This document shows positions 6,239 to 25,962 of a stretch of 64,000 nucleotides of DNA, one piece after another. The notes under the pieces were generated by a model. That model did no database searches. It was not told where the DNA came from and saw only the letters and a list, made by a program, of their open reading frames with translations. The position numbers were made by a program, and so were the translations under genes. Origin of the DNA: Hydrogenibacillus sp. (GTDB lineage: Bacteria > Bacillota > Bacilli > Thermicanales > DSM-22653); the NCBI GenBank assembly GCA_014896255.1, contig JADBKT010000017.1, positions 1 through 64,000 of the forward strand, in the 5' to 3' direction. Within the stretch, counting starts at the first letter, position 1; the number at the start of each line of letters is the position of its first letter.

Positions 6239-7033
6239 TCATACGGCGCCGACAAGCTGTTCCGTCAGCTTGGCTCTGAGTTGAACGAAGGCCGGATCGG
6301 CGCGAAGCCCCCTCCGACGCGGCCTTGCAAACGGCACATCGACCACGCCGGCGACTTCCGCCGGGCGCGGCGACAAGACGACGACGCGGTCGGCGAGGTA
6401 AAGCGCCTCTTCCACGTCGTGCGTGACCATCAGGATCGTCCGGCGCTCGCGCGACCAGACGCCCTCCAGCCACTCCTGGAGCGCGGATCGGGTGATCGCA
6501 TCGAGGCGGCCGAACGGCTCATCGAGCAAAAGGAGCGGGCTCCCTTGCAAGTAAGCCCGCGCAAGGGCCGCCCGCTGCCGCATCCCGCCGGAGAGCGCCG
6601 CCGGATAGCGGTCGGCAAAGCCCAAAAGCCCGAAATCGTGTAGAATCGCCTCCGCCCGGCGGAGCGCTTCTCCCCGCGGCACGCCGCGGACAAGGAGCGG
6701 CAGCGCCACATGTTCGCGCACCGCCTGCCACGGAAAGAGAAGATCGTCCTGCATCATGTAGGCGACGCGGCCCGGCCGACCGTCGATGCGCTCCCCTTGA
6801 AGACGGACTTCCCCATCGTCCGGGGGAAGAAGACCGGCGATGATGTTGAGCAGCGTGCTCTTCCCGGCGCCGCTCGGCCCGACGAGGGCGACGAACTGGC
6901 CTTCCTGGACGGAAAGCGAGATCCGCCGGAGCACCGGAACCGCCTCCGGACCACCGGCGATCCTCCGGCCTCGGCCGCCATGCTCGACAAACGTTTTCGC
7001 CACCGCGCGCACGTCGAGAAAAGCGCCCATCAC
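6239..7033 (-). CDS. thiZ: ABC transporter ATP-binding protein, thiamine precursor uptake (ThiZ-like)
   Basis: 264 aa; GPSGAGKSTLL, LSGGMRQRAALARAYL, LLLDEPFG; operon downstream of a TPP riboswitch. Confidence 0.8.
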   Translation of the reverse strand: MMGAFLDVRAVAKTFVEHGGRGRRIAGGPEAVPVLRRISLSVQEGQFVALVGPSGAGKSTLLNIIAGLLPPDDGEVRLQGERIDGRPGRVAYMMQDDLLFPWQAVREHVALPLLVRGVPRGEALRRAEAILHDFGLLGFADRYPAALSGGMRQRAALARAYLQGSPLLLLDEPFGRLDAITRSALQEWLEGVWSRERRTILMVTHDVEEALYLADRVVVLSPRPAEVAGVVDVPFARPRRRGLRADPAFVQLRAKLTEQLVGAV

Positions 7034-8082
7034 TTCGCCTCCGCCTGCGGCAAAAAATCGTTCGTAAACGCCCGGTCGACGTCGATCGGCCGGTCGATCA
7101 GTCCGGCCTCATGCATCCAGGCGGCAAAACGCGCCCACACCGCGCGGTCCTGATAACCCCAGTAGGGCCGCCCTTCCGCCCGGTCCTGTCGATCCACATC
7201 GGCCAGGTACGCCTGCGAGCGCTTGACCAGGTCGGCATTCAGTTCCGGCGCGTACGCAAGCAAAATCTCCGCCGAAGCTTCGGGTTCCGCCAGCGCCTCG
7301 ACATACCCTTTGACCAGGGCGCGCATGAATTTCTTGACCCGTTCCGGATGGTCGGCGATTGCCGCTTCGCTCGTCACCACGAGCGGCGTGTAATAGTCGA
7401 ATACCGGGTCAAGGTCCTTCAAGAAGATCAAGTTTAAGTCCATCCCGCGCCGCTTGGCCTCAATCCCGTCCCAACCGTAAAAAATCCATTCGAAGTCCAC
7501 CTCGCGGCCGATCGTCGCGAAAAAGTCCGCCTGTCCGAGGGTGACCATGTGAAGCTTCGAATAATCCGCCCCGTATCTCGCCATGAGCGCCTTTAACACC
7601 GCCTCTTCCGTCGGGCTCCCCCAGCCCCCGTAGCGCTTGCCTTCAAAATCCTTGACCGTCCGGATGCCGGCCTCTTTCAGCGAAGCGAACGCCGACGTGT
7701 TGTGCTGAAGCGGCGCGGCGAGGGAGACGATCGGCACGCCCTCGGCCCGCGCATACGTCACTTCCTCTTGATAGCTGTAGCCGAAGTCCGCCCGCCCGGC
7801 GGCGACCGCCTGCGCGACCCCGCTTTCGCCCGGTTGGACGACCTCGACATCGAGTCCCTCATCTTTGAAGTAACCGCGCTTGAGCGCGACATACAGGCCG
7901 GTGTGGTTCGTGTTCGGGTACCAATCGAGCATCACCGTCACCTTCTCCGGCGCCTGCTCGGTGTCTCTCGTCGCCTGCTGACAGCCGGCGACAAGCCCGA
8001 TCAAGGCGAACACGATCATAACGTATAAGCCCGATCGTGTGACCGCTCTTTTGCTGACCATCCCGCTTCCCCCCACGTTCAA
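7030..8082 (-). CDS. thiY: ABC transporter substrate-binding protein, NMT1/THI5 type (ThiY-like)
   Basis: 350 aa lipoprotein (LIGLVAGC); VMLDWYPNTNHTGLYVALKRGYFKDEGLDVEVVQP. Confidence 0.88.
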   Translation of the reverse strand: MNVGGSGMVSKRAVTRSGLYVMIVFALIGLVAGCQQATRDTEQAPEKVTVMLDWYPNTNHTGLYVALKRGYFKDEGLDVEVVQPGESGVAQAVAAGRADFGYSYQEEVTYARAEGVPIVSLAAPLQHNTSAFASLKEAGIRTVKDFEGKRYGGWGSPTEEAVLKALMARYGADYSKLHMVTLGQADFFATIGREVDFEWIFYGWDGIEAKRRGMDLNLIFLKDLDPVFDYYTPLVVTSEAAIADHPERVKKFMRALVKGYVEALAEPEASAEILLAYAPELNADLVKRSQAYLADVDRQDRAEGRPYWGYQDRAVWARFAAWMHEAGLIDRPIDVDRAFTNDFLPQAEAK

Positions 8083-8873
8083 TCATCAACCGATTTCCAG
8101 CGCAAAAACCACCGCGAAAGCAGTTCGACGACGGCAAAAAAGACGAGACTCACGATCACGATCACCGCGATCGCCGCAAACAGACGCCCCGTTTGAAACG
8201 ACTTCGAAGCGCGCACGAGGTAGACGCCGAGCCCTTTCGTCGCGCCCAGCCACTCACCGATCACCGCCCCCGTGACGCTGTACGTCGTGGCAATGCGCAA
8301 TCCCGCGAAAAACGACGGCAGCGTCTGCGGCCAGAGCACGTAGCGAAAGACATGCCCCGTGCGTGCACCCATCGTCCATAGCAGCTGGACCATACGCGGA
8401 TCGGCCTGGCGATACCCTTCCGCAAGGCTCACCGAAAGCGGGAAGAACGTCACGAGCAGCACCACGAGCACCTTGGGCAGCATTCCGTAGCCGAACCAGA
8501 CCATGATGAGCGGGGCCAGGGCGATGATCGGCACCGTCTGCGAGATGACGAAGAGCGGATACAACGCCTGCCGAAGCAAAGGAAAAAGGGCCATCGACGT
8601 CGCGATCGGGACGGCCAGCCCGACGGCCGTCAGGATCCCGATCACGGCCTCGGTGATCGTCGCCTGAGCGTGGTCCGCGATGACCGCGCGTTCCCCCCAC
8701 ATCTCCCGGACGATCGCCGACGGCGCCGGGAGCAGCCACTCCGGAACGCGACACGCGCGGACCAGCGCTTCCCACACCGAGACGGCGGCCAGCACCGCAG
8801 CGATCGACGGACCGCCCGGTAAGCGAGGACGGCGAAGGCGATCGATACGGCGGTCAAACCTTCCCGTCTTCAT
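8079..8873 (-). CDS. thiX: ABC transporter permease (ThiX-like)
   Basis: VWEALVRACRVPEWLLPAPSAI...; start inferred from MKTGRF with a 4-bp overlap with the upstream stop. Confidence 0.82.
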   Translation of the reverse strand: MKTGRFDRRIDRLRRPRLPGGPSIAAVLAAVSVWEALVRACRVPEWLLPAPSAIVREMWGERAVIADHAQATITEAVIGILTAVGLAVPIATSMALFPLLRQALYPLFVISQTVPIIALAPLIMVWFGYGMLPKVLVVLLVTFFPLSVSLAEGYRQADPRMVQLLWTMGARTGHVFRYVLWPQTLPSFFAGLRIATTYSVTGAVIGEWLGATKGLGVYLVRASKSFQTGRLFAAIAVIVIVSLVFFAVVELLSRWFLRWKSVDD

Positions 8874-10000
8874 GCCGGCCTCATCACGACATGCTGGAAA
8901 GCCGTCAACAGATCGCGGACGATGCGGTTCACCCGCTCCGAAGGACGGATCGCCCGCATGCCCAAGAGCGGTAAGGACGTGAGGACAAGTCCGCGCAAAG
9001 CATATGCCGCGTGGCGCATCATCCAACCGAGATTCTCGCCCGTCGCCTCATCCAACGTACCGTCCGCATGTGCCGCCTCTAGCCGCTCGACCGCTGCAAA
9101 AAAGATCATTCGATAACGTTCCGCCTCTTGCTGCGCGGCGTAGAGCGCTTCGGCCGCCGACGCGCCCGTCGTCTCGCGCGCCGGTGCCGTATCCGGCGCC
9201 GCTGCGAAAAAGGCCCGGGCCAGCCCTACGCAGACGGAAGCGATCGAGGCCACGGCAAAGAGCCCGAACGGCAAACGGTAGACGGAATACCCCGGATCCC
9301 AGATCATCTCTCCGACGACAAACGAACGTTCCTCGGGAACGAATACTTCCTCGGCGACGAACGTCCAGCTCGACGTTGCCTGCATGCCGAGCGCTTCCCA
9401 ATCGCGGATCAGGCGCACCTCGTGCGGAAGGAAAGCAAAAGCGCGAATGCGTTCGGCATCACCGAGGTCGACGGCCTCCCGCCGAGTGTCGTCCCCCTCG
9501 ATGTCGCGCCGCCGGGCCCCCGTCCGGGCGCCTTCCTCCAACACGGCATTCGCCGTAAACAGCGTCGCATATTGCGCCCCGCTCGCGTATTTCCAGCGGC
9601 CGGAAACGACGTAGCCGCCCGGAACACGTCGCGCCCGGCCGGCCGGATGCCCCGTCCCGGCGATCACCGCCCGCGGATCTTCGAAGAAACGCCGCGCCAC
9701 CTCCGGCTCAAAAGAAGGCACAAAAAATCCGCCGCCCGAGCCGATCTGCGAAAGCCATCCGAGGCTCCCGTCGATCGCCGCCAGCGCTTCGTATACACGA
9801 ACCGCTTCTTGTAAGGTCAACTCCGCCCCGCCGAGCGATTTGGGCACAAACAGCTTGAACAGCTTGTGCCGGATCATCCACACCAACACATCGTCTGGCA
9901 ACACGCCTTCCGCTTCGAACGCCGCGCCGCGGGAGACGAGCTCCTTCGACCGGGCTTCGATCGCCGTAAAGAGCGCCGCCGCATCACCGTCCATCGCCAT
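8870..10000 (-). CDS. Acyl-CoA dehydrogenase family protein / flavin-dependent monooxygenase-like
   Basis: about 376 aa; LAAIDGSLGWLSQIGSG, AGTGHPAGRARRVPGGYVVSGRWKYASGAQYA; first gene after the TPP riboswitch. Confidence 0.78.
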   Translation of the reverse strand: MAMDGDAAALFTAIEARSKELVSRGAAFEAEGVLPDDVLVWMIRHKLFKLFVPKSLGGAELTLQEAVRVYEALAAIDGSLGWLSQIGSGGGFFVPSFEPEVARRFFEDPRAVIAGTGHPAGRARRVPGGYVVSGRWKYASGAQYATLFTANAVLEEGARTGARRRDIEGDDTRREAVDLGDAERIRAFAFLPHEVRLIRDWEALGMQATSSWTFVAEEVFVPEERSFVVGEMIWDPGYSVYRLPFGLFAVASIASVCVGLARAFFAAAPDTAPARETTGASAAEALYAAQQEAERYRMIFFAAVERLEAAHADGTLDEATGENLGWMMRHAAYALRGLVLTSLPLLGMRAIRPSERVNRIVRDLLTAFQHVVMRPA

Positions 10001-10077
10001 TTCGCCCCCCTTTTTCTTTGTATCCCGCTCGAAGCGGAGAGCCGCATCATCCATGACCCGCGCCTGTTCCCGGGCGC

Positions 10078-10115
10078 CAAAAAAAACCCCGCCGGAGCAA
10101 GCGGCGGGGTTTTGG
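10078..10115 (-). terminator. Intrinsic terminator, riboswitch expression platform
   Basis: minus strand AACCCCGCCGCTTGCTCCGGCGGGGTTTTTTTT. Confidence 0.85.
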
Positions 10116-10143
10116 CCTTCGGACACGAATGCGCTTGAAGCGC

Positions 10144-10232
10144 CACCGCTCCCTCCGCTGGCATGACCCAGATCAGGTGCAGGCGGTCTGCAACGCCGTC
10201 GGTTGCACTCTCAGCCGACTGCCTCGGCTCCC
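10144..10232 (-). promoter_or_regulatory. TPP riboswitch (THI element)
   Basis: minus strand GGGAGCCGAGGCAGTCGGCTGAGAGTGC...CACCTGATCTGGGTCATGCCAGCGGAGGGAG. Confidence 0.95.
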
Positions 10233-10315
10233 GCGCGGTTTTCCGGATGGATTCGATTGTGTCTCCCATTATACCACAAAATGCCGGCGAAAGCATGACA
10301 TCTCCGGCGTGTCGC

Positions 10316-10717
10316 TCACGGCGTCAAGGCATATGCGCCGGGTCCGGTGAGAAAGCCGATCACCAGAGCGACGACGGCGATCACCAAAACATACTCGAAA
10401 CCGTTCTTGTCGATGAACAACCCGTTTTTCAGGTGCACCGTAAAGAGTGCGACGAACATGACCGCCGCGATCAACACCGAAGCGAGCGGCGTCCAAAGGC
10501 CGAGCGCGAACAAGAGGCCGCCGAAAAATTCCGCGCCTCCGGCGAGCGCCGCCCAAAGCGCCCCCGGCCGGAGTCCCATCGACTCCAGCCATCCGCCGAC
10601 GCCTTTGATGCCGTACCCGCCAAACCAGCCGAACAATTTTTGCGCACCGTGCGCCGCGACAATGAGCCCCAAAACCAAACGGACGATAAGCAGCCCGACG
10701 TCCAGATCGAACGCCAT
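10316..10717 (-). CDS. DoxX family membrane protein
   Basis: VGLLIVRLVLGLIVAAHGAQKLFGWFGGYG and GGAEFFGGLLFALG. Confidence 0.85.
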   Translation of the reverse strand: MAFDLDVGLLIVRLVLGLIVAAHGAQKLFGWFGGYGIKGVGGWLESMGLRPGALWAALAGGAEFFGGLLFALGLWTPLASVLIAAVMFVALFTVHLKNGLFIDKNGFEYVLVIAVVALVIGFLTGPGAYALTP

Positions 10718-10760
10718 CCGAAACCCCTCCTCTGACGCGTTTTTGTACAAGCAATGAGCA

Positions 10761-10785
10761 AGATACTATAATTAAATCAGTACCT
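10761..10785. promoter_or_regulatory. Imperfect palindrome, candidate HxlR-type operator
   Basis: AGATACT-N11-AGTACCT in the divergent doxX/hxlR intergenic region. Confidence 0.4.
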
Positions 10786-10898
10786 TAATCCTGTTATAAA
10801 CGACCGCCTAATCTTTGTCAAGCGCTTTATCGACGTCCGATCGATTTTAAAGCGCCTTCCTCGTGTGTTACAATAAATGCGACAAAGGAGTGGGTCGG

Positions 10899-11207
10899 AT
10901 GAACTACGCGCAGATGTGCCCCAAATACGAGGCTGCCAATGAAATCTTGGGCAAAAAGTGGACGGGCCTCATCATCCGCGTCTTGCTGGACGGGCCGAAA
11001 CGCTTTAAAGACATCAAAGAGCAAATCCCGCAGATGAGCGACAAAATGCTCTCCGATCGCATGAAAGAACTCGAAGCGAGCGGCATCGTCGAACGGCGCG
11101 TGTATCCGGAGACACCGGTACGCATTGAATACGTCTTGACGGAAAAAGGCCACGACACGGAGCCGATCATTCAGGCCATCCAGCAATGGGCCGATCGGTG
11201 GTATTAA
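10899..11207 (+). CDS. HxlR family transcriptional regulator
   Basis: MCPKYEAANEILGKKWTGLIIRVLLDGPKRFKDIKEQIPQMSDKMLSDRMKELEASGIVERRVYPETPVRIEYVLTEKG. Confidence 0.9.
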   Translation: MNYAQMCPKYEAANEILGKKWTGLIIRVLLDGPKRFKDIKEQIPQMSDKMLSDRMKELEASGIVERRVYPETPVRIEYVLTEKGHDTEPIIQAIQQWADRWY

Positions 11208-11613
11208 CCTTTTGCCCTGACCCATGGCGATAGACGACGACCGTCCCGGCGAGAGAATCGTGGATCGCCTGCTTGCGCCGGTCAAAAGCGGCGATCGCAA
11301 AACCGATGCCGAGCATGAGCGTAGAGACGAGCTTGCCGAGCGTCTCTCGGACGAGCGCACGGCCCAACCTGACCGGCCCTCCGTCCGGCGTGACGACGGC
11401 CAAGCCGAGCGCGAGCTTGCCGAGCGTGCCGCCAAACCACACCGTCAGCAATACAAAATACGCCAAGGGCAAGAGGAACGACAAGACAAGCCCTTCGAGC
11501 GGGAACGCCACGTGAAGCAAGCGTTCGACGATCGGCGGAATCAGCGACAAGACGGTGAGATCGGCGAGCAAGGCGAGGAGGCGTACCCAAAAACCGGCAT
11601 ACCGCAAAGCCAT
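11167..11613 (-). CDS. RDD family membrane protein
   Basis: 148 aa; YAGFWVRLLALLADLTVLSLIPP and GGTLGKLALGLAVVTPDG. Confidence 0.85.
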   Translation of the reverse strand: MALRYAGFWVRLLALLADLTVLSLIPPIVERLLHVAFPLEGLVLSFLLPLAYFVLLTVWFGGTLGKLALGLAVVTPDGGPVRLGRALVRETLGKLVSTLMLGIGFAIAAFDRRKQAIHDSLAGTVVVYRHGSGQKVNTTDRPIAGWPE

Positions 11614-25774: not shown

Positions 25775-25880
25775 CTCTTATCTGCCAGAATGAACCATTC
25801 TGCAGGAATTGGCACCTTGACACGCCGCGTGCCGGTTGCCGGGTTTCATCGGGCCCGTCCCTCCACCGCTCTGGATAAGA
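25775..25880 (-). promoter_or_regulatory. SAM-I (S-box) riboswitch
   Basis: minus strand CTTATCCAGAGCGGTGGAGGGACGGGCCCGATGAAACCCGGCAACC...AAGGTGCCAATTCCTGC...CAGATAAGAG. Confidence 0.95.
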
Positions 25881-25962
25881 AGCTCCACGTATGCGATTGT
25901 CAGGCGATGATCATCACGATGGCTCGATTGTAACGGCGTCCAACCGGGATGTCAAGTGTAAT

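Follow-up and report, generated by a model that had tools for sequence, protein, structure and literature searches.

A predicted group D flavin monooxygenase accompanies thiamin importers under TPP riboswitches in Bacilli and Bacteroidota

The window analysed here is the whole stretch of 64,000 nucleotides at the start of contig JADBKT010000017.1 from Hydrogenibacillus sp. Its minus strand carries, in this order, a TPP riboswitch, a terminator, the gene of a 376-aa flavoprotein and thiX-thiY-thiZ (Table 1), an arrangement that had been proposed from a sequence-only reading and that was confirmed with cmscan, ORF analysis and Pfam. The riboswitch matched RF00059 at 72.7 bits (E 2e-12), above the gathering score of 54.3. 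Behind it, a G+C-rich terminator-like hairpin followed by a T-run gave three overlapping matches, against 0.5 expected in shuffled sequences, and this terminator, placed between the aptamer and the first gene, is probably the expression platform. Aptamer and platform thus lie directly upstream of the operon, as in a TPP-riboswitch regulon. Folding of the whole leader showed no unusual stability (z -0.57), a value that is uninformative for a GC-rich leader.

Table 1. Features of the thiamin-linked operon in the window.
Feature	Position	Strand	Basis
TPP riboswitch aptamer (THI element), operon head	10133..10244	-	cmscan RF00059, full-length match
Intrinsic terminator, CCCCGCCG...CGGCGGGG then T-run	about 10079..10110	-	sequence reading and terminator-like matches
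Operon gene 1: predicted flavin monooxygenase of group D, HsaA/Rv3094c-like, 376 aa	8870..10000	-	ORF and translation, PF02771/PF08028, PDB sequence matches, AlphaFold model
thiX, ABC transporter permease	8079..8873	-	Pfam BPD_transp_1, E 2e-26
thiY, substrate-binding protein	7030..8082 (TTG start 8082, or alternative ATG start 8061)	-	NMT1, E 8e-74
thiZ, ABC transporter ATPase	6239..7033	-	Pfam ABC_tran, E 8e-35

The genes had also been described as joined by 4-bp overlaps throughout. At the first junction this was read directly in the sequence, where the stop of the flavoprotein gene overlaps the ATG of thiX (start 8873) in an ATGA motif; at the thiX/thiY and thiY/thiZ junctions it holds only if translation starts at a TTG in thiY (8082) and a GTG in thiZ (7033). 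The three thi genes provide the ThiY-type binding protein, permease and ATPase of a ThiXYZ importer. No flavin reductase gene and no further catabolic genes were found in the window operon. Immediately upstream of it (positions 10316-11208), a DoxX-like gene on the minus strand and an HxlR-like gene on the plus strand were recognized from their translations, and a SAM riboswitch (98.1 bits) was detected elsewhere in the window, at 25775-25881 on the minus strand.

Pfam searches with the 376-aa protein yielded weak matches to Acyl-CoA_dh_N and Acyl-CoA_dh_2, and its best NCBIfam match was HsaA, with 80.8 of 450 bits and far under the cut-off. A profile built from 57 homologues was then compared with the PDB, considering matches with E < 1e-10. 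These comprised Rv3094c, HsaA and its Rhodococcus homologue, XiaF, HPAH-C2, DszC, TdsC and MsuC, together with a few putative or unassigned proteins of the type-2 ACAD fold, and no acyl-CoA-oxidising dehydrogenase was among them. The AlphaFold model of the protein (pLDDT 92.8, pTM 0.92) pointed in the same direction when used with Foldseek, as Rv3094c, XiaF and HsaA came first, the 24 nearest fold neighbours were all monooxygenases or unassigned proteins, and acyl-CoA dehydrogenases appeared lower. The protein therefore combines an ACAD-type fold with nearest kinship to HsaA, HPAH-C2, XiaF and Rv3094c.

In addition, the alignment placed H370 of the window protein, 98% conserved in 115 homologues and located within a conserved RD..T..QH segment, at the position of H351 of Rv3094c, the C-terminal histidine that is described there as proton donor to the hydroperoxyflavin (PMC9904262). 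Other positions set the family apart: Thr149 and Asn151, about 97% conserved, are not shared with Rv3094c; no variation was seen at Trp82 and Trp136; and W308 is family-typical, but is replaced by Glu in the window protein. An identity as acyl-CoA dehydrogenase was rejected on the profile matches, the fold neighbours and H370, and the active-site comparison that the sequence-only reading had called for came out on the monooxygenase side. By kinship in sequence and modelled structure, the flavoprotein is classed as a predicted group D two-component flavin monooxygenase, and it very probably has monooxygenase chemistry.

ThiXYZ is classically a pyrimidine importer, and the transporter had been expected to bring in a pyrimidine precursor. 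However, the window ThiY showed 54% identity to the binding protein 4NMY (E 1e-103) and only 30% to the formylaminopyrimidine-binding ThiY 3IX1 (E 3e-36). The former is a thiamin-bound protein (PMC10586155), and by sequence the window ThiY is nearer to this thiamin-bound type than to the formylaminopyrimidine type. The same pattern was found for ThiY of G233, a genome of another Bacilli family in which ThiC, ThiG, ThiE and TenA went undetected (see below), so that the proposed pyrimidine cargo was not borne out.

Homologues of the enzyme were searched for in other genomes, as had been suggested from the window alone. Within the class Bacilli, they were present in 22 out of 400 genomes, and in one Bacilli family in 77 out of 250, where the weaker matches probably include paralogues. 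Linkage to a TPP riboswitch and thiXYZ was observed in 7 of the 42 Bacilli neighbourhoods read, window included. Two relatives (G001 and G003) showed the order of the window, riboswitch-enzyme-thiX, followed by thiY-thiZ in the window and G001, while the G003 contig ends at that point. The order riboswitch-thiY-thiX-thiZ-enzyme was found in G233, G367, G408 and G497, four genomes that belong to a different Bacilli family. TPP riboswitches over the gathering score were found at loci L020, L021, L059, L063, L095 and L096. The G003 homologue (L021:6469-7932) has about 100 inserted residues near the C-terminal domain, rich in short Gly/Ser/Glu repeats.

In the other 35 Bacilli neighbourhoods, the homologue was an orphan located beside housekeeping or unrelated genes, with neither a TPP riboswitch nor thiamin neighbours. 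In view of these orphans, the monooxygenase reaction may extend beyond thiamin. No conserved neighbour that could serve as a general clue to the reaction was found among them. In several Bacilli genera (L058, L061, L103, L108, L111, L114), the orphan is consistently flanked by ychF-like and rpsF/ssb-like genes.

The thiamin link was more pronounced in Bacteroidota. In Sphingobacteriaceae, homologues were present in 204 of 301 genomes. Here, 33 of 43 neighbourhoods presented a TPP core, often a TonB receptor, a PnuT-like carrier and then the enzyme; five showed PnuT and enzyme with no detected core, and five neither. A phylum-wide draw of Bacteroidota detected the homologue in 24 of 396 genomes and added 16 neighbourhoods, six with the full arrangement and one with PnuT only. 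In total, the homologue was found directly behind a PnuT-like carrier (a PF04973 match in L008) under a TPP riboswitch in 39 of 59 Bacteroidota neighbourhoods, the TPP core being scored in these counts by an in-house motif scan, with a cmscan check on several loci. In this check, the riboswitch of L220 was confirmed over the gathering score; matches below it (E 2e-7 to 7e-3) were obtained for L008, L009, L010, L151, L153, L157, L161, L167 and L229, each just upstream of a TonB or pnuT gene; and the score was not reached in L148, L171, L174, L221, L223, L224 or L230. In two of the genomes (G615 and G616), the only TPP riboswitch detected was the enzyme-linked one.

Several additional genes were noticed around these loci. 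The PnuT-monooxygenase pair is immediately preceded by a malate:quinone oxidoreductase-like gene in L161, L167-L170, L183, L223 and L224, and a conserved 188-aa protein (MSSHHIVREKQEPALLI...), with no Pfam or PDB match, is encoded near the TonB-PnuT-monooxygenase operons at L009:11806-12372, L008:12627-13193, L010:9457-10023 and L145:2537-3103. This protein, which lies near Mucilaginibacter operons (L009:11806-12372), was considered as a thiamin pyrophosphokinase (TPK), but its profile did not match those of seven TPKs. Finally, Kapabacteria homologues lie behind an ABC set, made up of a PhnC-like ATPase and a permease, and an amidohydrolase gene (L005:4876-9047, L007:4905-9131); no TPP riboswitch was found near them, and this neighbourhood, although uninformative about the thiamin link, is possibly a third transporter context.

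The presence of the flavoenzyme in a thiamin-regulated uptake operon was thus upheld and proved far broader than the window: the association recurs in Bacilli and Bacteroidota, the opposite of the absence from other genomes that the sequence-only reading had named as counting against it. The arrangement is seen in genera other than that of the window, in two gene orders and, with a different transporter, in a second phylum. This exceeds chance, and we regard a connection between the enzyme and thiamin uptake as almost certain. The main argument for it is the reuse of the enzyme with two unrelated importers and in two Bacilli gene orders. A 72-row tree, built with a quick method, placed the TPP-linked sequences in separate places with orphans between them, corresponding to six changes of state by gain or loss.

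The thiamin genes of the hosts were then analysed. The window genome (1.9 Mb, 92.5% complete) contains three TPP riboswitches besides that of the operon, followed by what read as tenA, thiM-thiD and thiC genes, of which tenA and thiC were also detected by Pfam. Immediately in front of the riboswitch and tenA, a short-chain dehydrogenase gene was noticed (L024:6672-8430, C9). A different content was found in G233 (100% complete), which keeps riboswitch, importer and enzyme and has a TPK (77.8 bits); Pfam searches detected neither ThiC nor TenA in it, only weak off-target matches for ThiG and a sub-threshold match for ThiE. In four Sphingobacteriaceae genomes (G616, G618, G642, G685), ThiC, ThiG, ThiE and TenA all went undetected in the same type of search. 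ThiC was missing in 14 of 20 examined enzyme-holding Sphingobacteriaceae genomes, and TenA in most of the enzyme-holding genomes examined. A PF04263 match for TPK was obtained in none of 20 enzyme-holding Sphingobacteriaceae genomes (G615-G618, G629, G631 and others); this profile matched in a Bacteroides control and in all seven Bacilli. To the extent that Pfam sensitivity and assembly completeness make these absences real, hosts lacking ThiE would have no known enzyme to join pyrimidine and thiazole parts, and the useful product of the monooxygenase would therefore need to have both rings in place, unless the enzyme serves another purpose.

These data can be accommodated in the following scheme. 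A TPP riboswitch with a terminator keeps its operon on at low TPP and off when TPP is plentiful, so that a shortage of TPP would turn the operon on and importer and enzyme would be made together. The importer would take up thiamin and related vitamers that retain the whole pyrimidine-thiazolium skeleton. An unlinked reductase would supply FMNH2 or FADH2 to the enzyme, which, as suggested by its group D kinship, would form a C4a-hydroperoxyflavin and oxygenate its substrate. This substrate could be an inactive form of thiamin, whether oxidised, reduced or substituted (which of them is a guess), and the product would re-enter as thiamin and then be pyrophosphorylated. We give about even chances to the reading of the enzyme as the oxygenase component of a reduced-flavin-dependent group D monooxygenase that salvages or repairs thiamin beside its importer, and likewise consider it a balanced question whether the purpose is the salvage of a vitamer with intact skeleton. 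More tentatively, the locus could reveal an undescribed O2-dependent step of B1 acquisition in Bacillota and Bacteroidota, in which damaged thiamin with both rings is turned into usable thiamin, feeding some auxotrophs.

The main rival to this salvage of an intact-skeleton vitamer is that the monooxygenase serves to inactivate toxic analogues of thiamin, or other aromatic cations, that enter through the induced importer as well. The kinship with Rv3094c, which sulfoxidises ethionamide (PMC9904262), the expected co-expression with two different importers and the orphan homologues outside any thiamin context all fit such a detoxifier; we nevertheless hold it to be rather unlikely, as it leaves unexplained why one enzyme family, and not varied detoxifiers, stands behind thiamin importers in two phyla. 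Less likely still is that an imported pyrimidine or thiazole degradation product is converted into HMP or hydroxyethylthiazole and rejoined via ThiD, ThiM and ThiE. Such a route would suit the TPP-controlled tenA, thiM-thiD and thiC of the window genome and the classical role of ThiXYZ, but it is at odds with the closeness of the window ThiY to a thiamin-bound protein, with PnuT being a known thiamin carrier, and with the unit being kept in G233 and the four Sphingobacteriaceae genomes with no detectable ThiE, ThiC, ThiG or TenA. Since flavin monooxygenases commonly open catabolic pathways and the gene adjoins a thiamin importer, the enzyme might instead consume thiamin, oxidising it for catabolism or towards another metabolite; this is improbable under a TPP riboswitch and terminator expected to be off at plentiful TPP, the opposite of a catabolic switch, and in an operon with no further catabolic genes. 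Finally, the reading to which the Pfam domain names point, a conventional acyl-CoA dehydrogenase that entered the operon by chance, deserves hardly any weight, being already contradicted by the monooxygenase-type sequence and fold neighbours, by H370 and by the repeated pairing of the enzyme with different importers in two phyla.

Thiamin uptake and salvage count as well-charted pathways, made up of transporters, TenA, ThiD, ThiM, ThiE and TPK. An enzyme class tied to importers under TPP riboswitches in two phyla, and kept where no thiamin-building genes were detected, implies that a vitamer or a chemistry is missing from the maps of B1 metabolism; auxotrophy predictions and cross-feeding models would change, and many "acyl-CoA dehydrogenase" annotations would gain a testable role. 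Searches of the open-access literature found no paper that connects this enzyme family to TPP riboswitches, PnuT or ThiXYZ; a prior mention in RegPrecise-type databases or in subscription papers is possible.

Among known systems, the closest to the window enzyme in both sequence and fold is Rv3094c of Mycobacterium tuberculosis (PDB 7F70/7F72/7F74; profile E 9e-60, TM about 0.83), with 27% identity and with H351 and F136 aligned to H370 and Y138, respectively. However, the Rv3094c gene shares a transcript with that of a predicted flavin reductase and has a link to a regulator, and no thiamin context is given for it in the available part of its published account (PMC9904262), whereas the window enzyme is encoded in a thiamin operon that contains no reductase. 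HsaA (3-HSA hydroxylase), HPAH-C2, XiaF and DszC have the fold, the domain order and the conserved RD...H C-terminal segment in common with it, but only 16-22% identity, and T149-x-N151, W82 and W308 are typical of the window enzyme's own family. Regarding the transporters, ThiXYZ systems with a 3IX1-type ThiY and that of 4NMY combine, as in the window, a ThiY/NMT1-type binding protein, a permease and an ATPase under a TPP riboswitch, to which the window operon adds the enzyme gene. Similarly, the Omr1-PnuT thiamin uptake operon of Bacteroidetes comprises a TPP riboswitch, a TonB receptor and a PnuT-like carrier, as found in L008-L010 and many of L145-L184, and the loci of Sphingobacteriaceae and some other Bacteroidota add a group D monooxygenase directly after PnuT. 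In pyrimidine salvage, TenA (thiaminase II) and YlmB are likewise salvage enzymes that are under TPP control and work alongside thiamin-related uptake, but they are hydrolytic and unrelated to the window monooxygenase.
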